Assembly (NCBI GenBank): GCA_001897425.1
Contig: MKSW01000036.1
Location: 81,589-145,588, forward strand
DNA length: 64,000 bases
Source: Actinobacteria bacterium 69-20
GTDB lineage: Bacteria > Actinomycetota > Actinomycetes > Mycobacteriales > Nakamurellaceae
Direction of reading: 5' to 3'
The notes beneath the pieces are model-generated. The model ran no database searches. It saw nothing but the letters and a program-made list of their open reading frames with translations, and was not told the DNA's origin. Positions 31,246 to 40,779 of this stretch are shown one piece after another. The position numbers were made by a program, and so were the translations under genes. Position 1 is the first letter of the stretch; the number at the start of each line of letters is the position of its first letter.

Positions 31246-31280
31246 GTGACAAACGGAGCGTCTCGGGTCACTAAGTAGGT
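31246..31280 (+). promoter_or_regulatory. Probable ECF-sigma promoter 1 (GTGACAA-N14-GTCAC type)
   Basis: GTGACAA starts at 31246 and GTCACTAAGTAGGT at 31267, exactly 21 bases apart as in the other two copies. The ATG of the inhibitor-like gene follows at once at 31281, so the transcript may be leaderless. Confidence 0.7.
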
Positions 31281-31664
31281 ATGACTGCTATCTCCTCCAT
31301 CGCCCAGCGACTCGTGTACACGTTCCTGGCATCCGCTTTTGTACTCGTGATGCTCGCTGTCTCGGCGCTTTCCGCCCATGCTGCAACGGTGGGACCATTC
31401 ACGTCATCGGCGTGCCCCGCCAATAACATGTGCCTGTGGAGCGGCGCGGCCTTTACGGGCGCGTTCTTCAACACTATGACGTCGACCGATATTCCAACAT
31501 TGTCGGTTGCCAAATCAGTCTGGAACCGCACCGCCAAGGCCGTGAGGGTGTATTCGAGCGCAGGGGGGAGCGGCTCATCGACATGTTTCGCGCCGGGGAC
31601 ACAGGTATCCAGTACGACGCTGACGGCACGATCGGTCGTCGTACTTCCGTCGACCACCTGCTAG
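31281..31664 (+). CDS. Secreted peptidase-inhibitor I36-like protein
   Basis: A 127-residue protein with a clear Sec signal peptide (a basic start, then LVYTFLASAFVLVMLAVSALSAHAA), giving a mature part of about 92 residues. The mature sequence (CPANNMCLWSGAAFTGAFFN, with W and paired Cys, and SVWNRTAKAVRVYS) matches the small I36 inhibitor / beta-gamma-crystallin-like fold found in Streptomyces secreted proteins. Inhibitory activity is inferred. It sits directly after the ECF-type promoter, and its last 82 bases overlap the sigma factor gene in another frame. Confidence 0.72.
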   Translation: MTAISSIAQRLVYTFLASAFVLVMLAVSALSAHAATVGPFTSSACPANNMCLWSGAAFTGAFFNTMTSTDIPTLSVAKSVWNRTAKAVRVYSSAGGSGSSTCFAPGTQVSSTTLTARSVVVLPSTTC

Positions 31665-32191
31665 AAGCTGAAGGCGACGCGGCGCAGTTCACCGAACTGT
31701 ATCGCGCCGCCCGAGCGCCTGTGCGTCGCTATCTGCAGCGCATGATCGGTGTGGAAGACGCGGACGACTTGACCGCGGACGTGTTCGTGACGGTCTGGTC
31801 CCGCTGGTCCGAAGTGCCTGCTGAGTTCGTCAAACGAAGGTCCTGGGTTTTCAAAGTTGCCCACTTCAAGGTGCAGGAGACGATCCGTTCGCGGCGATAC
31901 CGCCGGGGCCTGCTGCTGCAGCTCACGGCGCGCCGGGTCGAGACTTCAATGCCCGGACCGGAGGACGATGTCCTCGCGTTGCAGAGCGCTCGGGAGGCGT
32001 TGATGCTGTTGCCGCCGTCGGAGCGGGACGCGGTCGCGCTCGTGGCGTTCGGCGGGCTGTCGGGCTCCGAGGCGGCAGATGCGCTGGGGTGCTCGGCCTC
32101 CGCCGTGACCAGTCGCGTCAGCCGGGCACGACAGCGGTTGAAAAAGGTGCTGTCCACGGATGAGGAGGTGCACCGTGAGACCCGACAGTGA
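31583..32191 (+). CDS. ECF RNA polymerase sigma factor
   Basis: A 202-residue sigma-70 family regulator with region 2 at about 35–100 (FTELYRAARAPVRRYLQR, DDLTADVFVTVWSRW) and region 4 at about 135–190 (LPPSERDAVALVAFGGLSGSEAADALGCSASAVTSRVSRARQRLKK). It should direct transcription from dedicated promoters. The three GTGACAA/GTCAC sites in this island are the obvious candidates, the first of them upstream of its own operon. The ATG at 31583 lies within the preceding gene, and no later start is plausible. It overlaps the next gene by 17 bases. Confidence 0.9.
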   Translation: MFRAGDTGIQYDADGTIGRRTSVDHLLEAEGDAAQFTELYRAARAPVRRYLQRMIGVEDADDLTADVFVTVWSRWSEVPAEFVKRRSWVFKVAHFKVQETIRSRRYRRGLLLQLTARRVETSMPGPEDDVLALQSAREALMLLPPSERDAVALVAFGGLSGSEAADALGCSASAVTSRVSRARQRLKKVLSTDEEVHRETRQ

Positions 32192-33287
32192 GCGTGAGAT
32201 CGAGGAGATCCGCGGGTTCTTCCTGGAGCACGGCCTGCTTCCTCCCATCCCCGAGCGATATGCGGACGACGAGGAGGAGGCGGAGCGTGTCCGCCAGAGA
32301 GTCCTCGCGCGGGGCAGGACAACATCGCAGACAACATCGCATAGGAGGAAAGCGGCACGTTCCGGCAGCCGGCGCCGGCGCATGATGCTCGCGACGGTTG
32401 CGGCAGTTTTGATTGTGCTTGGTGGCGGCGCGCAGGCAATTGTTCGCAGCGCCCCGGCTTCGGCGGCCGAGGCACCCGCGATGCTGAGGTACAGCGTGGC
32501 CAGTCCCGAGTCCATCGACTCGGCGCCGCCAGCCGCTGCCACGTTGAAGACCGCGGCTCGCGCGACGTTCACGGGACCCCCACCCGTGGGTGTTGGAGAG
32601 GTGCAGTACGTCGCAAAATATGGATGGTCGCCTAACGTGCGGGTGGAAGCGGACAGGTCCTTGAGCGTCGCCATCTATCCCACGCGCACGCAATGGTGGT
32701 TGATGCGGGACGGTGCGGTCCGGGTGGACGAAACTCGCGGCAACCCCCTGGGTCTGGACGGGCACCTGACGGCGGATGCGAAGGACGCGCCCAGCCCGGT
32801 CACGAGCGAGACGAACCCGGCCGGCACCATCGACCCGGACCTCGCGGGACGCTTGTCGACGAACCCAGCGGCGCTCCGCGCGGAACTGCTGGACACTCAG
32901 GCGGGTCTACCCTGCGACCAAGACGCCCGCTGGCAGGCCGAGTGTCTGGTTCGCGCGGTCCAAATGGTCTACGACGAGTACGTTGTCACGCCGAAACTCG
33001 CCTCGGCCATGTGGAGCGTTCTCGCCGGCGAGAGCGCCCTGCGCTCGCTGGGGGCCACGGTGGACCGGCTCGGCAGGCCGGCTCGTACTGTGGCATTGCC
33101 GCCAGAGCCGGGCCAGCCCTCTGAGCAGGTCATCGTGCTGCTGATCTCCGAGAGCACCGGGGCGTATCTCGGCACGGAGATCGTCACGCTTCACGACGCC
33201 GCGCTGGGTATCAGCAAGCCCACCGTGACGGCGTTCAGCGAGCTGTCGGCCGCCCGCTGGGTCAAGGCCTCCGGGAACACCTCCTGA
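32175..33287 (+). CDS. Membrane-anchored CU044_5270-type partner of the ECF sigma factor
   Basis: A 370-residue protein with a charged cytoplasmic N-terminus (about 70 residues, many Arg/Glu), one membrane span (MMLATVAAVLIVLGGGAQAIV, about 70–90) and an extracytoplasmic domain of about 280 residues. Gene order and architecture match actinobacterial CU044_5270-family proteins, which follow ECF sigma genes and may act as sensors or anti-sigma partners. Its role here is inferred from that. GTG at 32175 follows AGGAGG at ideal spacing and overlaps the sigma stop. Confidence 0.75.
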   Translation: MRPDSEREIEEIRGFFLEHGLLPPIPERYADDEEEAERVRQRVLARGRTTSQTTSHRRKAARSGSRRRRMMLATVAAVLIVLGGGAQAIVRSAPASAAEAPAMLRYSVASPESIDSAPPAAATLKTAARATFTGPPPVGVGEVQYVAKYGWSPNVRVEADRSLSVAIYPTRTQWWLMRDGAVRVDETRGNPLGLDGHLTADAKDAPSPVTSETNPAGTIDPDLAGRLSTNPAALRAELLDTQAGLPCDQDARWQAECLVRAVQMVYDEYVVTPKLASAMWSVLAGESALRSLGATVDRLGRPARTVALPPEPGQPSEQVIVLLISESTGAYLGTEIVTLHDAALGISKPTVTAFSELSAARWVKASGNTS

Positions 33288-33408: not shown

Positions 33409-33443
33409 GTGACAAACAAGTTGTCCCGAGTCACTAAGTTGGT
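33409..33443 (+). promoter_or_regulatory. Probable ECF-sigma promoter 2
   Basis: GTGACAAAC at 33409 and GTCACTAAGTTGGT at 33430, with the same 21-base offset as sites 1 and 3. It lies about 125 bases before the secreted-protein gene at 33568, in an otherwise empty stretch of about 280 bases. Confidence 0.7.
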
Positions 33444-33567: not shown

Positions 33568-34188
33568 ATGATAAAACGCTTCGTCATAGCGGCAAGTTGC
33601 GTAACCGTATTGTTCACTTCGTCGGCAGTCGTTGCTAGCGCGCAGTCCGTCGACGCGACTGATGAACCAGCTTCCGAGAGGGCTTATTCCCTTGATGTAC
33701 GGGCGCAAGACGTCGTCGATCACATAGGTCCAATTAACGACATTGGACAACCCGAGTCAACGTCAGGTCTGAGTTCGACTCGAAAGGGCCAGGTACGAGC
33801 CTCTACTTCGGTGACGCCGAACGGCGCGATTGTGACATTTTCACCAGCAGGATGCAAAGGATCAACTGACTATCCCCATAAGACCGACCTAACATATGCC
33901 TCTGTACATGGCAAAACTCAGTGTAACGCGATCGTTGCATACGTGGAAGTTTCTACTGATCTGTATCGTGACCGATGGTATGGGGAAGAATTCTTGAAAA
34001 ATGGATTCAGCAGCCGTGACCATTACACATGGTCCGGCGAAGCAACCCCACACTGGTTGTGCCTTGGTACTGGTGAGTATAGCTATCGTGGATACTCAAC
34101 GCATCGCTCGCTCGAAGGCGCTACCTGGTATTACGCATCGACCTCGAACTGGCAACTTCCCGGTATAAGCCGCTTTATATGTTGGTAA
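33568..34188 (+). CDS. Secreted protein of unknown function
   Basis: A 206-residue protein with a Sec signal peptide (MIKRFVIAASCVTVLFTSSAVVASAQS). The mature part contains four Cys (in SPAGCKGS, KTQCNAI, WLCLGTG and RFICW), many aromatic residues and no family I recognise. GGAGGT lies about nine bases before the ATG. Codon choice is visibly less GC-biased than in the backbone, a sign of transfer. It is the first gene of a tightly coupled trio, and its TAA stop overlaps the next ATG (TAATG). Confidence 0.75.
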   Translation: MIKRFVIAASCVTVLFTSSAVVASAQSVDATDEPASERAYSLDVRAQDVVDHIGPINDIGQPESTSGLSSTRKGQVRASTSVTPNGAIVTFSPAGCKGSTDYPHKTDLTYASVHGKTQCNAIVAYVEVSTDLYRDRWYGEEFLKNGFSSRDHYTWSGEATPHWLCLGTGEYSYRGYSTHRSLEGATWYYASTSNWQLPGISRFICW

Positions 34189-34805
34189 TGCGGCGCCGGC
34201 TTGGGGCAGTAATTGTACTTTCCTGGTTCTTGATGGGCTGCAATTCACTGGCACCGATGCGAGATACGACTGTAACAATGGTCACGCCCGTCGATCGGCC
34301 GGCTTTAGGTAGCCGCCACCCCGTGTTGGTATCTGTCCCTTCCTCGCCCGATCGGCCTCCACGTGTGAGTGTCAACGACAAGGAGGTGGCGCTATTGTCC
34401 TTTTATTGGTACGATGCCACTGAAAGAATCGCGAAAGCAGAGCGCCCAGCCGACGATGATAATGTCGAGGACTTGGAGCCGGTAACCGTCGGCAAGGACC
34501 GCGCCATTACCGTAAGCTTTGACTCGCCCGGACCTCCTCTGCGAATTCGAATTCGGTTCTTTGCTTCAATTGACGCAACGAACCGCCTGCCAGCAGAAGA
34601 ATTTTCTGGTGTGTCCTGCTCTATCGGAGAACCAACATGCGATTGGACGGCGGGCGCTGATGGCATATCGACACGGGTACAAGTCTCGGAACATACTGCG
34701 GTGGTAATCATTAGCGCGTTGTTTGAGAAGGCCGACGTCGCAGAAAGCCAAAAACTTTGCCCTTCAAGTAACTATTTGAGCTTCGGAGTCCGCATAGTAC
34801 CGTGA
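34188..34805 (+). CDS. Putative lipoprotein of unknown function
   Basis: A 205-residue protein with a short signal (RRRLGAVIVLSWFLMGCNS) and a likely lipobox FLMGC, followed by a beta-rich domain without recognised motifs. Two Cys (SCSIGEPTCDW) may form a disulphide. The ATG at 34188 overlaps the preceding TAA. An alternative ATG at 34179 would add three residues. It overlaps the next gene by four bases. AT-richer than the backbone. Confidence 0.7.
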   Translation: MRRRLGAVIVLSWFLMGCNSLAPMRDTTVTMVTPVDRPALGSRHPVLVSVPSSPDRPPRVSVNDKEVALLSFYWYDATERIAKAERPADDDNVEDLEPVTVGKDRAITVSFDSPGPPLRIRIRFFASIDATNRLPAEEFSGVSCSIGEPTCDWTAGADGISTRVQVSEHTAVVIISALFEKADVAESQKLCPSSNYLSFGVRIVP

Positions 34806-35452
34806 TTATGAAATGTGCTATTCCAAGTTTCGGAGCCGACTCGCGCCTTGTTTCGGGCTTCGCTGTGGATGATGATCGGCCGGTATTTCGAATATTCGTC
34901 CCCCTGGAACAATCTGATGGGACCTTCAGGAGTTGGACTGCGTGCACGGAAGCGGTTGGAATCAGGATGCACCCGCTTTTGCGCTGGAGTTCGGTAAGAA
35001 GGAAGGCTATGGCGAGGGGTATTGATGTTGGAACTCCGGCGATGGGTAAGGTGTGCAGATCATTCATTCGAGGATTCTTTGATCTTTTGCCGGAATTCGA
35101 ATGTCTTCCAGGCTGTTTCGCGCTCTGGAGTGATTATGCTGATCCCGAGCCAGACGGAGCACATTTGACAGTTAATAGGATTCCACGATCTTCCTCGAAC
35201 TTCTTGTGCGATGGGTCTTTCTACCTCTATCGTAACTTGCTCGGTTGGGCGATGTCGCGATCTTTCGAGAATAATCTTCGGTTTCCAGTGGCGCTGTGGC
35301 CTGATACCGGTCTATTTACAGTGGCTGCCCCCATCTACACCGACTCGTTATATATTACTTGCGAAGACTCTGTGTACAGTCGTCTTAAATTTGGCGGCCT
35401 GGATATACTCCCGATTGATCGAGCGGCGACGTGTCCGTCTGAGGGTGATTGA
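34802..35452 (+). CDS. Hypothetical protein
   Basis: An open frame of 216 residues beginning at a GTG that overlaps the lipoprotein stop (GTGA). There is no signal peptide or membrane span and no family I recognise. It is rich in Phe, Trp and Cys (for example FIRGFFDLLPEFECLPGCFALWSDYADP). Tight coupling with the two genes upstream supports that it is real. Base composition is like theirs and unlike the backbone. It could work with the secreted protein and lipoprotein as an immunity or partner protein, but that is only a guess. Confidence 0.55.
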   Translation: MIMKCAIPSFGADSRLVSGFAVDDDRPVFRIFVPLEQSDGTFRSWTACTEAVGIRMHPLLRWSSVRRKAMARGIDVGTPAMGKVCRSFIRGFFDLLPEFECLPGCFALWSDYADPEPDGAHLTVNRIPRSSSNFLCDGSFYLYRNLLGWAMSRSFENNLRFPVALWPDTGLFTVAAPIYTDSLYITCEDSVYSRLKFGGLDILPIDRAATCPSEGD

Positions 35453-35606: not shown

Positions 35607-35641
35607 GTGACAATTGCCGCGCCTCGGGTCACTGAATAGGT
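35607..35641 (+). promoter_or_regulatory. Probable ECF-sigma promoter 3
   Basis: GTGACAATT at 35607 and GTCACTGAATAGGT at 35628, again 21 bases apart. It lies about 75 bases before the small secreted peptide gene at 35718. Confidence 0.7.
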
Positions 35642-35717: not shown

Positions 35718-36053
35718 ATGAAGGTTATGTCATTAGCAAAGCGGTCATTGAAGCTGGCCACGGTGTCGATGTTGGCGGCTGGGGTGACCCTCGTCGCTGC
35801 GCCTATTGCCGCGAATGCGGGCGGGATCTCACCTTCAGCGAACCGATGCTACACGCAGTGGTGGAACACCTCGTGGGCTCAGCGGTGCGACGGGGCGACC
35901 CTTGCCGCTAAGTACACCTCGAACGTGAAGTGCAGTTGGCCAGAGATCCCAAACCGGAGCCTGACCGCCACTCGCTCCGTCGGCAGCACGGACACCTTCT
36001 GGGGCGCCGACTGCATGTACGGGGCCTACGGAGGCACGATCACCGTTGGATGA
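35718..36053 (+). CDS. Small secreted peptide (candidate bacteriocin-like product)
   Basis: A 111-residue precursor with a signal peptide (ending AAPIAANAGG, cleavage near residue 35) and a mature peptide of about 75 residues containing four Cys (NRCYTQWW, QRCDG, VKCSWP, ADCMYG), several Trp, and Gly-rich ends. Size, cysteines and an ABC system directly downstream recall secreted bacteriocins with dedicated immunity or export. The sequence is not lactococcin 972 and I do not recognise a family. AAAGGGG precedes the ATG. It is followed by a strong hairpin. Confidence 0.7.
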   Translation: MKVMSLAKRSLKLATVSMLAAGVTLVAAPIAANAGGISPSANRCYTQWWNTSWAQRCDGATLAAKYTSNVKCSWPEIPNRSLTATRSVGSTDTFWGADCMYGAYGGTITVG

Positions 36054-36058
36054 TTCGA

Positions 36059-36096
36059 GTGAGCACGTCGCCCAGGTGATCGGGCGACGTGCTCAC
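36059..36096 (+). terminator. Terminator-like hairpin after the secreted peptide gene
   Basis: A perfect 15-base stem, GTGAGCACGTCGCCC (36059–36073) with GGGCGACGTGCTCAC (36082–36096), around an eight-base loop, then GCTTGTTCT. It would separate a highly expressed peptide gene from the ABC genes. Confidence 0.8.
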
Positions 36097-36131
36097 GCTT
36101 GTTCTACTTGGGTGATCGGAGCTATGCGGCG

Positions 36132-36881
36132 GTGTTGACGGTACTGAACGTTCAACAGGGGTACGGGGCGAGAGTCGTCATTGGCGACCTTTCGTTTTCC
36201 TTGGCACCGGGAGTTCATGCTCTGCTCGGGCCTAACGGTGCTGGTAAGACCACGCTGTTGCGCACTCTGGCGACGGTCGACCCTCCCATGCGGGGGCAGA
36301 TTCTGATCGACGGTGTTGAACTCACCGGCCGGACCCTGGACGAGGTGAGGCGGCGGATCGGCTATCTGCCGCAGAAGTTCGGCATCGATCCCGCGATGAC
36401 GGTCGCTGAGTTCGTCTACTACGCGGCCTGGGCGCGCGGTGTGCCGAGACCCCTGCGGAGGGCCGCCGTCGGTGAGGCATTGGAGAAGGTCGACCTCCTC
36501 GTTGACCTACGAGCTACCAAAATGAAGCGCCTTTCCGGTGGCATGCGTCAACGCTCCGGTATCGCCTGGGCCATCGTCGGAAATCCGGCGCTGATTCTCC
36601 TTGATGAGCCCACCGTTGGACTCGACCCACTGCAGCGGATCCAGTTCCGCGGAATCATCGCTCAGCAGCGCGACAGCGTGGTCGTGCTCAGCACGCATCT
36701 GACGGACGATGTTGAGGCGGTCGCCGACTCCGTCATTGTGCTCGACGACGGTGCTATGCGGTTCCAGGGTCCGCCGGCGGAACTTGCTGCGGTGGGAACC
36801 GCGGCGAGTCCGGGAGACACACCTCTCGAGCGTGGGTTCACCTCGCTGATCGTCGCCGGCGCGCGGCGGGCGGAAACATGA
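36132..36881 (+). CDS. ABC transporter ATP-binding protein
   Basis: A 249-residue ATPase with Walker A LGPNGAGKTTLL (about residues 32–43), the Q-loop in GYLPQKFG, the signature LSGGMRQRSG, Walker B LILLDEPTVGLDP and the H-loop STHL. It resembles ATPases of drug or bacteriocin export and immunity systems. The GTG at 36132 is preferred over an in-frame TTG at 36099 because GGAG lies upstream and the family N-terminus fits. It overlaps the permease gene by four bases. Confidence 0.88.
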   Translation: MLTVLNVQQGYGARVVIGDLSFSLAPGVHALLGPNGAGKTTLLRTLATVDPPMRGQILIDGVELTGRTLDEVRRRIGYLPQKFGIDPAMTVAEFVYYAAWARGVPRPLRRAAVGEALEKVDLLVDLRATKMKRLSGGMRQRSGIAWAIVGNPALILLDEPTVGLDPLQRIQFRGIIAQQRDSVVVLSTHLTDDVEAVADSVIVLDDGAMRFQGPPAELAAVGTAASPGDTPLERGFTSLIVAGARRAET

Positions 36882-38176
36882 TCGGGGTTGTGCTGCGCCG
36901 GAGCCCGGCTCGGTGGTTTCTCCCGCTCGGCGTTGTCCTCGCACTCGGGGTGCTGATTTTTCGCTCGCGATATTGGATCGGTGTGTGGCCGCAGACCGCC
37001 GCCGCCGCCCAGATCCCTGCGATCCTGCTGAGCGGCCTTGCGGCGGCCGCCGCCGCGTGGTCGGTGACGGCCACCACGCGATTCGGCATGACGGAGCAGA
37101 TGCGAGCCATGGTCGTTCCGGGGTGGAGACGGGAACTTCCGTTCGCTCTCGTCGTCACCGGCTACTTCGCCGGGGTGATCCTGCTGTGCCAGGTGGTGGC
37201 CGCGGTGCCCACCGCGCGGACGTGGCCGCCGGGCTTCGGGCTGGTTCCGGGCTATGTCGTGATGGCACTGGTGGTGATCGTGCTGTCGGTGGCGTTCGGC
37301 CACCTCGTGGGCAAACTGTTGTCCGGGATGTTCGCGGCAGCGGTCGCGGGCCTCGCGTGGCTGCTGATCGCGATGTATCTGGGCCAGATGATCGGCCTCG
37401 GTGTGGTCAGCGGCCCGGTCTGGGACGAAATCGACCTGCCGATCGTGCTGGCGCGGCTGCTGTTCGCCGTCGCGCTGCTTGCCCTAGCGATCGTGATTCC
37501 GCCGCGGTCTCGCGCTCGAGCAGATGGCGGCTGGCGGCGGAAGGGCGCGACGTGGTTCGGTGCCACTGCCCTCGCCGCCACCGTGCTCCTGCTGGGCGTT
37601 ACGGTCGCAGCCGGATCCCCGATCAAAGCGCGACCACCGGTGGCCACTGACGAGTGCGCCGGAGTGACGGTGAAGCTGTGTCTGTGGCCGGAGCACGCAA
37701 AATACCTCCCCCAGATCGAAGCCATGGCCGCACGGCTCGATCAGATGCCGGATTCTCTCGAGGTTCCGGCGCGGATCGACGAATACGGCCTGACCTACCG
37801 GCCGGGCGTCCCCGGCCAGACCGTCTTCACGGACGTTCCCGACCACCCTCCGTACTTCGCTCTCGTGGAGGGAAGCATGTGGTCGGTCGCCGTGTCGATA
37901 GCCGACATCATCGGGAGGAAGAACATTCACCCCTGCACCGCACCAGGCACGTCCAAGAGCGACGACGAATACCTGCGGGCAGTCGAGTTCGTCGCGTGGG
38001 TCGAGGCGTACCTAGTGGGCGGGACAGGCGGCCCCGACTACCACACGAGTGCGGGCGCAGACAGGCAAGCCGCCGCCGCACGCGGAGTCGCGCGGGCGCA
38101 CCACGGCACCGCGGAGGAGCAGTTCGCCTGGGCTCTCAAAACGAAGAATGCCTTCAACGATGCTCCGTGTCAGTGA
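36878..38176 (+). CDS. ABC transporter membrane subunit with a large extracytoplasmic domain
   Basis: A 432-residue protein. The first half has about six hydrophobic segments (PLGVVLALGVLIF, IPAILLSGLAAAAAAW, ALVVTGYFAGVILLCQVV and more). A further span near 225–245 is followed by an exported domain of about 180 residues with a Cys pair (DECAGVTVKLCLWPEH). Similar membrane proteins accompany ABC ATPases beside small secreted peptides in actinobacteria. The exported domain could recognise the peptide, but that is inference. It overlaps both neighbours. Confidence 0.75.
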   Translation: MIGVVLRRSPARWFLPLGVVLALGVLIFRSRYWIGVWPQTAAAAQIPAILLSGLAAAAAAWSVTATTRFGMTEQMRAMVVPGWRRELPFALVVTGYFAGVILLCQVVAAVPTARTWPPGFGLVPGYVVMALVVIVLSVAFGHLVGKLLSGMFAAAVAGLAWLLIAMYLGQMIGLGVVSGPVWDEIDLPIVLARLLFAVALLALAIVIPPRSRARADGGWRRKGATWFGATALAATVLLLGVTVAAGSPIKARPPVATDECAGVTVKLCLWPEHAKYLPQIEAMAARLDQMPDSLEVPARIDEYGLTYRPGVPGQTVFTDVPDHPPYFALVEGSMWSVAVSIADIIGRKNIHPCTAPGTSKSDDEYLRAVEFVAWVEAYLVGGTGGPDYHTSAGADRQAAAARGVARAHHGTAEEQFAWALKTKNAFNDAPCQ

Positions 38177-38825
38177 CGAGCCTTCGCCGCTGCGCCTTTT
38201 CATCAGATCGCGACGGGTTCCCGCGGGGCTCATCCTCACCGGAATACTGTGCCTTCTCGTCCCGCTCATCGGGCACACCGTGCTGCCGATGCCTACGTCG
38301 GGGACCGAAAGCGGCACGGTGGCGGTTCCGGCGTGGCGCCTTGTCGCCGTCGCGATCGCCTTCGTCCCCGCGATATGTTGCCAGAGCCCGTTCGGAGAGG
38401 GCGAGGCCGCCTGTGGGCACCATTGGCGCCGGCTGCGGACTCTGGTCCTCGCGGTATACTCGACGGGCAGCGCGGTTCTTCTGACCGTGATCTGCTGGAT
38501 AGCATTCGGCGATGCCATCGCGGTCGCCGTTCTGCGCGGGTTCATCGGCTGGTGGGGTTTCTCGGCGCTGACCGGCCGACTGCTGGGCTGGCGGCTGGCG
38601 TGGGCAGGCCCGCTCGCAGCGCTTCCCTTGTTGATCTTCTGGGGCTTCAGCCTGGAAGGACCACGCTGGTGGGAATTCACCGCCCGACCCGCCGGTGACG
38701 GACCCGCGTGGGCAGTCGCGATCGCTCTGCTCGCCGTCGGTGTGCTCGCATACGAAGCGGATCCATGGCGCCGACAACAGCTTCGAGCCGTGCTCCGCGC
38801 TGTGGGGCGTACTACCCATCAGTAA
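38160..38825 (+). CDS. Second membrane protein of the peptide ABC system
   Basis: A 221-residue protein with about six hydrophobic segments (VPAGLILTGILCLLVPLIGHTV, LVAVAIAFVPAICC, LVLAVYSTGSAVLLTVICWIAF and others). No catalytic motif. The ATG at 38160 overlaps the preceding gene by 17 bases, so it is probably the second permease or an accessory subunit of the same transporter. Starts further upstream in this frame lie deep inside the previous gene and are not favoured. Confidence 0.68.
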   Translation: MLRVSDEPSPLRLFIRSRRVPAGLILTGILCLLVPLIGHTVLPMPTSGTESGTVAVPAWRLVAVAIAFVPAICCQSPFGEGEAACGHHWRRLRTLVLAVYSTGSAVLLTVICWIAFGDAIAVAVLRGFIGWWGFSALTGRLLGWRLAWAGPLAALPLLIFWGFSLEGPRWWEFTARPAGDGPAWAVAIALLAVGVLAYEADPWRRQQLRAVLRAVGRTTHQ

Positions 38826-38984: not shown

Positions 38985-39536
38985 TTAGCTATCGCACTTA
39001 ATCGTTGCCGGAGCGCATAGGCTAAATGATCCACTTATGGTCTCCGAATACTTCTGTCCTTCATATTCGTAAGAAAAAACTATGTGAGACCAATCAGAGC
39101 GCCCGTCTTTGTGTGCGATTATCTTAAACAGAATATTAACAAGACCAGAATCGGCGGTTAAAGTAAAGTCTTCAAGCTTCACTTCATGCCCGTGAAGTTC
39201 TGATAATACTGTCTCCCAATCGGCGACCGCAATGGCAGGTAGGTCCCAGCGAACCGATTCGACCGCGTAAACTTCAACTACAGATCCGCGTGTAGTTCCG
39301 TCGGGTACAAGGGTTGCCGCCAGATTTGTAACTGGCGCATTACTGGCACTCCTGATTGTAGCCAGCCCGAACCCGACCGCCGTTCCCGAATCGACGGAGA
39401 TGTCACTATGAAAGTCACTGGTGCTTACAATCTCTACCGGCCCTACTGCGGCGGCCGAAGCCGAGCACGCTACGACGACGGTTATGAATACGGCCAAGCA
39501 GGCAATGTGGTAGCCTGAGTGTTTCTTCCTACACAT
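38985..39536 (-). CDS. Secreted protein of unknown function
   Basis: A 183-residue protein with a signal peptide (HIACLAVFITVVVACSASAAA, possibly a lipoprotein at the Cys of VVACS). The mature part is beta-rich (FTLTADSGLVNILFKI, HIVFSYEYEGQKYSETISG) with a Cys pair near the end. No family recognised. It overlaps the upstream gene by eight bases, so the two form an operon. AT-richer than the backbone. Confidence 0.7.
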   Translation of the reverse strand: MCRKKHSGYHIACLAVFITVVVACSASAAAVGPVEIVSTSDFHSDISVDSGTAVGFGLATIRSASNAPVTNLAATLVPDGTTRGSVVEVYAVESVRWDLPAIAVADWETVLSELHGHEVKLEDFTLTADSGLVNILFKIIAHKDGRSDWSHIVFSYEYEGQKYSETISGSFSLCAPATIKCDS

Positions 39537-40779
39537 TCTGCACGTAAACTATGCCTGGGCTACCACTAAGAGGTCCGTACTGGCCACAAATATAGACACC
39601 ATTCCCCGCGGTTCCCCACCAGTCCTGTCTCACTCTGGTGCTGAACCCGGACTTCGCCCCGAGTGTGATGTACGGGGTCGTTACAGCTACCGAGATCTTT
39701 GTTTGAGCAGTTGAGGATATCCAGGTGTGACCGTTATTAGGCAAAATCGTTTTGTAACTTGATCGAGGCGCAGTCAAGCAAGATTGGGCGCCAGAGCCAG
39801 CACCAGTGCTTGTTGTTATACCCCCACCCTGCCACTTGACCGCAGTTACCTTCTCATCGCCGACTCTGTATCCGATGTCTTTACATGTCGTTCCGTTGGG
39901 TGCACCAAAATAATCACTAAAATGCCCTTTGATGTAGCTGAAGCTTCCATTGAAATATCCATTGAAGGCTCCATAAACGGTTGTGTCTGATCCAGAAGTA
40001 GCCGCAGTGCCAATATGAACCGATCCGTTCACGCCCCAGCTAGTATTGAAGTTGCGGAGCCCGACATCTATATCCGAGTCCGCGGTAGCGCCGTAAGATA
40101 CTTGGATCTTGGAATGCGTGTCACTGTGCCCGTTTACGATTGCCGTATACTTGTTAAATGTAGAGTCTGTTATGAACTGACAACCGAGAGCAAGCGCCGC
40201 AGGCGTAGGCCCCGCCGTGGGAATAGCACTCAACTTATTCGAGCTGCTTGCATCCGAGAAACCGTTTATAAGAGAATCGCTCAGGTCATACTTTAGGCGA
40301 ACGTCGAGATTTGGTTTTTGATAATCGTTTAAATCTCCCATAGTTAGGCCTGATGCTGGATCCCAGGAAAAATCGATAGTCCTGGAATCGCCATTTGGCA
40401 TGACAACTCCCGCGGTTAGATTGATCCGACCATCATTTGTCCCACTTGCGCGAGATAACGCCTGGGAACGAGGGATGTGCAAGGTAAATACACCGCTGTC
40501 GTCGGTTTTCGTTGCTGCGAGAGCAGTGACGTTAAGAACATCCCCATCCTTTGCGTTCTCCAAGCCCGGGATCCATGAGACCATCACTGTCGCCCCAGCG
40601 GGCGATATTCGCGCGGAGGTGGCTGACTCGATCACCACCCTGCCACTTACCGTATCCTCCCCGGACGTTGCGACACTGCCGTTCGAACCTGCCGGGGGCG
40701 AACCACCCGCGAGGACAGCGCCAGTTGCGAGCAGTGTCGTGATCATCGAGAACTTCGTTGCTGCGAGCATTGCAACCAC
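39529..40779 (-). CDS. Large secreted protein of unknown function
   Basis: A 416-residue protein with an N-terminal hydrophobic signal (FSMITTLLATGAVLAGGSPPAG), a carboxypeptidase-regulatory-like beta domain (about 40–130: VSGRVVIESATSARISPAGATVMV, GVFTLHIPRS) and a Gly/Ser/Thr/Asn-rich C-terminal half with several Cys (GCQFITDS, TTCKDIG, QSCLTAP, YICGQYG). It looks like an exported structural or binding protein. The start is 22 bases from the IS end at 40801, so its promoter may lie in the insertion sequence. Confidence 0.7.
   Translation of the reverse strand: MVAMLAATKFSMITTLLATGAVLAGGSPPAGSNGSVATSGEDTVSGRVVIESATSARISPAGATVMVSWIPGLENAKDGDVLNVTALAATKTDDSGVFTLHIPRSQALSRASGTNDGRINLTAGVVMPNGDSRTIDFSWDPASGLTMGDLNDYQKPNLDVRLKYDLSDSLINGFSDASSSNKLSAIPTAGPTPAALALGCQFITDSTFNKYTAIVNGHSDTHSKIQVSYGATADSDIDVGLRNFNTSWGVNGSVHIGTAATSGSDTTVYGAFNGYFNGSFSYIKGHFSDYFGAPNGTTCKDIGYRVGDEKVTAVKWQGGGITTSTGAGSGAQSCLTAPRSSYKTILPNNGHTWISSTAQTKISVAVTTPYITLGAKSGFSTRVRQDWWGTAGNGVYICGQYGPLSGSPGIVYVQNV

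Follow-up and report, generated by a model that had tools for sequence, protein, structure and literature searches.

A secreted four-cysteine peptide with a dedicated ABC system: a candidate new bacteriocin locus in an actinobacterium

Actinobacteria have few unmodified bacteriocins that are secreted by the Sec pathway, and such peptides are easily overlooked. In BceAB and LanFEG, an ATPase and its membrane partners protect against envelope-active peptides; BceB has a large extracellular domain, and LanEG are two membrane subunits. Tendamistat (PF01356) of Streptomyces is a small secreted four-cysteine beta-sandwich, as is predicted for the peptide described below, but the two share no profile similarity, and we know of no ABC partner of tendamistat. 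Closest in organization is lactococcin 972, which itself contains no cysteine. The gene of this secreted beta-sandwich peptide precedes a gene pair for an ABC transporter with a putative immunity role (PMC4055356, PMC11796350). The immunity role of these ABC genes is presumed (PMC11796350, PMC4055356), and strains that carry the B and C genes of lactococcin 972/streptococcin B without the A gene are known (PMC11796350).

Here we analyzed a stretch of 64,000 nt, referred to as the window, from Actinobacteria bacterium 69-20 (GCA_001897425.1, contig MKSW01000036.1, positions 81,589 to 145,588). One of its loci resembles the lactococcin 972/streptococcin B operons in that a small secreted peptide, here modeled as a beta-sandwich, is encoded without a modification gene or dedicated exporter and is followed by putative immunity ABC genes. 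As in lactococcin 972, a Sec signal is predicted and ABC genes lie directly 3' of the peptide gene; here they are three, co-inherited with it, and belong to another subfamily. Whereas lactococcin 972 combines PF09683 with two ABC genes, the window locus has the ATPase first, then a permease with a DUF7224-like domain, and then a second membrane protein; its peptide family has four invariant cysteines and no sequence relation to lactococcin 972. In contrast to BceAB/LanFEG, the permease has six transmembrane (TM) segments followed by a C-terminal domain, the second membrane protein is small, and no two-component system was seen. None of the Streptomycetaceae Lcn972-type loci had a member of the window permease subfamily within ~5 kb. 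By analogy, the window locus would work like a lactococcin 972 system but is not a member of its family. We consider it probable, though well short of certain, that the locus encodes a Sec-exported bacteriocin with ABC immunity, organized like lactococcin 972, unrelated to it in sequence and embedded in a private ECF regulon.

The peptide, its fold and its ABC partners

The initial annotation had described a 111-residue precursor with a signal peptide and a Cys/Trp-rich mature part, and such a gene is found on the plus strand at 35718..36053, with AAAGGGG, a good ribosome-binding site, just 5' of its ATG. The predicted signal covers residues 1 to 35, which leaves a mature part of ~76 aa with four Cys and five Trp; hydropathy, used instead of a dedicated predictor, shows a basic N terminus, one hydrophobic segment (residues 10 to 38) and an ANA motif at the end. 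The genes of the peptide, the ATPase, the permease and the second membrane protein all lie on the plus strand at confirmed coordinates, and since all four are conserved across phylogenetically distant genomes, they are more than chance open reading frames (ORFs). The 86-nt gap between peptide and ATPase genes folds with -38.6 kcal/mol and contains, as initially noted, a strong hairpin (36059..36096, plus strand) with a 15-bp stem, 11 GC pairs and a weak U-tract, which is likely a partial terminator. Similar hairpins occur in L021, L022, L028, L029, L058 and L061, and none was seen at the short-gap loci L056, L057, L059 and L063; Rfam detected no RNA family in the 31- to 42-kb region.

Neither the peptide nor its 20 homologs had a credible match in Pfam, NCBIfam or PDB chains, where only signal-peptide-driven or chance matches were obtained. 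A match to a known structural or enzyme-inhibitor family would have contradicted the initial annotation, in which the peptide family was not recognized; by sequence, there is none. The four cysteines are invariant in the 21 aligned sequences, which share only 20 to 33% identity with the window peptide over the full precursor. AlphaFold2, run with eight sequences, modeled the mature peptide as a five-strand beta-sandwich (pLDDT 90.9), for which Foldseek returned no significant relative (best E 0.5) and VIA no structure with a Z score of at least 5. The VIA comparison placed lactococcin 972 (2lgn) at Z 4.2 (62/66 residues, rmsd 2.8), tied with unrelated beta-sandwiches, and tendamistat (1hoe, Z 3.7) likewise stood among unrelated sandwiches with tied scores. 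Both families were rejected by profile comparison: the lactococcin 972 family (PF09683) matched 0/21 members and, represented by five Streptomycetaceae Lcn972 peptides, reached an hhalign probability of 2.2% over 12 columns, and the tendamistat family (PF01356) gave no profile match and an hhalign probability of 0.1%. Because of the missing sequence-family match, the tied fold scores and the lack of a profile relation to lactococcin 972 or tendamistat, we call this four-cysteine peptide family undescribed; its fold is of a common type that does not prove ancestry. Profile comparison with the four-cysteine peptides of L091 and L094 revealed no clear relation to the window family, and the window peptide had no match in phage records. 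Three marginal relatives without ABC genes were noted (L110, L111 and L112), two of which (L110:4793-5188 and L111:5051-5419) represent another four-cysteine secreted Streptomycetaceae family that has no ABC neighbors and shares marginal similarity with the window family.

Downstream of the hairpin follow, in overlapping frames on the plus strand and as initially reported, an ATPase, a membrane subunit with a large exported domain and a second membrane protein. The ATPase (36132..36881; PF00005, E 3.8e-31) is 49 to 61% identical to the ATPases at related loci. Its ORF opens with TTG 36099, which adjoins the hairpin; GTG 36132 is the likelier start and keeps the Walker A and signature motifs. 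The permease (36878..38176; 432 aa) consists of six hydrophobic/TM segments and a C-terminal exported domain of ~180 residues, and has conserved cysteines at positions 260, 268, 353 and 431 (Cys260, Cys268, Cys353, Cys431). The gene of the second membrane protein (38160..38825; 221 aa, ATG start, about five hydrophobic segments) overlaps the permease end and is kept beside the permease in related loci; the protein matched no Pfam or NCBIfam family.

By profile score, the exported domain belongs to DUF7224 (PF23866, cutoff 27 bits) in the relatives L019 (27.3 bits) and L065 (31.4 bits), but the window protein itself, homologous to the L019 permease from end to end, stays under the cutoff with 14.3 bits. 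A model of the domain (pLDDT 77) gave a best Foldseek E of 0.97 and no VIA hit with Z of at least 5, and no solved relative was found. DUF7224 is a domain without a described function, on which a literature search returned nothing; other DUF7224 carriers lack the four-cysteine peptide.

Co-occurrence, loss and divergence across genomes

Related loci were collected by a permease scan of genome contigs and then from Streptomycetaceae, a plasmid collection and the window's own order. The first scan yielded five loci in Actinomadura, Actinoplanes, Salinispora and Streptomyces, four of them with the peptide directly before the ATPase, and with two peptide copies in Salinispora and three in Streptomyces. 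Altogether, 19 loci with a close permease, including the window, were obtained from the window's order, Micromonosporaceae, Actinomadura, Streptomycetaceae and two plasmids. All 19 share one gene order. An intact four-cysteine peptide stands beside the ATPase in 15 of them; the remaining four have open ABC genes but no peptide, a truncated one or one interrupted by a stop. When 249 Streptomycetaceae genomes were searched with both profiles, 10 contained a close full-length permease, nine of these with an intact peptide; all confident peptide matches, including two remnants, lay at permease loci, and no clear family peptide was seen away from ABC genes. A Fisher test of this pairing (249 genomes, 17 genera) gave p ~1e-15, a value that is uncorrected for relatedness and overstates the evidence because the genomes are related. 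From these counts and the position of all confident peptides at permease loci, the peptide-ABC association is therefore strong within the close-permease subfamily. Together with the failed family matches, this pairing supports the initial view of a candidate new bacteriocin or signaling locus with a dedicated ABC system.

The initial annotation would have been contradicted by ABC genes that occur independently of the peptide. In the close subfamily, this happens only where the peptide is lost or broken, but distant cousins without it do exist: these (permease profile 34 to 77 bits) keep the ATPase, permease and membrane protein and lack a window-type peptide, and several from Streptomycetaceae lie directly after an ECF sigma gene. 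Since these cousins do without the peptide and often stand beside an ECF sigma gene, this type of ABC system is not intrinsically a bacteriocin immunity device. An ECF sigma gene 5' of the ATPase, permease and membrane protein was seen in the distant cousins L069, L073, L076-L078 and L080, a recurring actinobacterial pairing that we could match to no description. At L065:3190-3609, a different, two-cysteine secreted protein precedes the ATPase of a DUF7224 ABC cousin by 19 nt, which suggests that DUF7224-type ABC systems are not tied to a single peptide family.

The four damaged loci are of different kinds, with the peptide missing in L019 and L054, its N-terminal half lost in L055 and an in-frame TAG in L072, and all four retain open ABC genes. 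At L066, where a deletion has joined the ATPase to the permease, the peptide is frameshifted as well; among the loci examined, ruined ABC genes were never accompanied by an intact peptide. Such an asymmetry is the trace expected of a toxin with its immunity, but it does not decide alone, since much the same would be expected if the ABC system were a resistance pump and the peptide a helper that it can do without.

Divergence is faster in the peptides than in their ABC partners, with mean identities across loci of 30% (peptide), 39% (permease) and 60% (ATPase); in the closest pair (L029/L061) the permeases are 93% and the peptides 63% identical. Distances of peptides and permeases nevertheless correlate along the same tree (Mantel r 0.83). 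Five of the 15 loci with an intact peptide hold extra peptide copies (L021, L022, L028, L056 and L058), and the distribution of the cassette is patchy. On a Kitasatospora plasmid (L028:2115-10828), peptides flank the ABC genes on both sides, and one transposase gene and one hypothetical protein (same protein accessions) recur at either end of the region.

A shared upstream site and the ECF neighborhood

Direct comparison of upstream regions revealed a shared promoter-like/operator site, GTGACAA-N10-YCGRGTCACT, in three copies on the plus strand: at 31246..31272, 8 bp before the ATG at 31281; at 33409..33435, before the genes at 33568-35452; and at 35607..35633 (GTGACAATTGCCGCGCCTCGGGTCACT), 84 bp before the peptide ATG. 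These are exactly the three matches in the 4.48-Mb genome, all of them in the window and each before a secreted-protein gene; 16 congeners contained no exact match, and a backward control also gave none. This supports the promoter initially proposed before the peptide gene, and we infer that the shared site may be read by the ECF sigma factor. The site also holds a GTGAC...GTCAC inverted repeat and may accordingly be bound by a dimeric regulator, in place of the ECF factor or in addition to it.

The first gene after the first shared site encodes a secreted peptidase-inhibitor I36-type peptide (31281..31664, plus strand; PF03995, E 2.8e-13) and overlaps the 5' part of the ECF sigma ORF in a different frame. 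The true start of the ECF sigma factor (31580..32191, plus strand; Sigma70_r2 and r4_2) must be downstream of the ORF start at 31430; 31580 is the first ATG, and region 2 starts at ORF residue 90. The next plus-strand gene (32160..33287) encodes a CU044_5270-family protein (NF038083, E 1.5e-27, 97.2 bits at a cutoff of 100) with one strong TM segment (residues 73 to 101), a candidate anti-sigma factor; a literature search for CU044_5270 together with an ECF sigma factor gave nothing. Among the 16 congeners, the CU044_5270-type gene is absent, and the window peptide is absent at a credible score. As these genomes lack the shared site, the CU044_5270-type gene and the window peptide, the locus was probably gained recently as a unit with its own switch.

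Three overlapping plus-strand genes at 33568..35452, for a secreted protein with several Cys, a lipoprotein-like protein and a 216-aa protein, belong to no known family and are probable co-regulated neighbors, possibly another antagonism or adhesion module. This stretch has ~52 to 54% GC, compared with ~70% to its left. Two more secreted proteins with no assigned family are encoded on the minus strand at 38985-40779, in a second low-GC stretch (~50%).

Competing readings of the locus

Under the bacteriocin reading, the Sec signal would take the peptide out through the general secretion machinery, and the peptide would fold into a small disulfide-bonded beta-sandwich that, once released, may attack the envelope of rival actinobacteria. 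The ABC system encoded by the three genes that follow would protect the producer: its DUF7224-like exported permease domain, which on this reading is the natural candidate recognizer, may bind the peptide or the peptide-bound target, which would then be removed by ATP hydrolysis. The hairpin would keep the peptide in excess over the ABC proteins, and the cassette would be switched on in this genome by the private ECF sigma regulon that also holds the I36-type secreted peptide. Co-occurrence, loss asymmetry, faster peptide divergence, extra copies, the Sec signal, mobility and the shared logic with lactococcin 972 all argue for this reading. Against it stand the lack of sequence relation to any known bacteriocin, a fold likeness to lactococcin 972 that is tied with unrelated sandwiches, the distant ABC cousins without the peptide and the three marginal peptides without ABC genes. 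Control by an ECF factor is also unusual for a bacteriocin.

The most serious competitor, which we nonetheless consider unlikely, is an ECF-controlled envelope-stress module. Its ABC system would defend the cell against external peptide antibiotics or damage to the envelope, with the peptide as a helper or signal, i.e., a binder, a decoy or a ligand sensed through the exported domain. This reading would account for the nearby ECF sigma and anti-sigma-like genes, for three shared sites before three secreted-protein genes and for the distant Streptomycetaceae cousins that directly adjoin ECF sigma genes, and ABC genes kept without a peptide are also expected of a resistance pump. However, most peptide-bearing relatives have no similar sigma gene nearby, tandem and fast-diverging peptides suit a weapon better than a helper, and such frequent loss of a helper from loci that retain the pump would be unexpected. 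Far less probable is that the ABC system exports or matures the peptide. Adjacency, co-inheritance and the correlated peptide and permease distances are compatible with such a role, but the peptide carries its own Sec-type signal and would not need the ABC system for export; moreover, its leader is Sec-like without a double glycine, the ABC proteins contain no peptidase C39 domain or other peptidase domain, and at four loci the ABC genes persist although no intact peptide is present. Hence, among the functions initially considered, self-immunity fits best, ABC export is unlikely because of the Sec-type signal, and signaling through the ECF factor may still apply. That the peptide is secreted to inhibit an enzyme, as tendamistat or protease inhibitors do, seems, if anything, slightly more improbable still: the similar size, two Cys pairs, a Trp-containing stretch between Cys1 and Cys2, the beta-sandwich model with its tendamistat likeness and the I36 inhibitor-type gene under the same motif are offset by the absent profile relation, and an inhibitor would not need a dedicated ABC partner.

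Returning to the bacteriocin reading, it is tempting to speculate, with somewhat less than even confidence, that the locus represents a new actinobacterial class of disulfide-bonded beta-sandwich bacteriocins with a kind of ABC immunity system of its own, whose DUF7224-type domain would recognize the peptide or its target, and that it has been drawn here into a private ECF regulon that triggers several secreted proteins at once. The pairing offers a testable function for the uncharacterized DUF7224 domain, and the single-genome ECF regulon is a directly testable case of sigma-controlled antagonism. In addition, the conserved peptide-ABC pairing provides a simple rule for finding such peptides, which current annotation can miss: one plasmid copy was recorded only as a "hypothetical protein," and another, the family peptide at L029:4640-4987 on the Streptomyces globisporus plasmid CP109147, was not called as a gene in its record.
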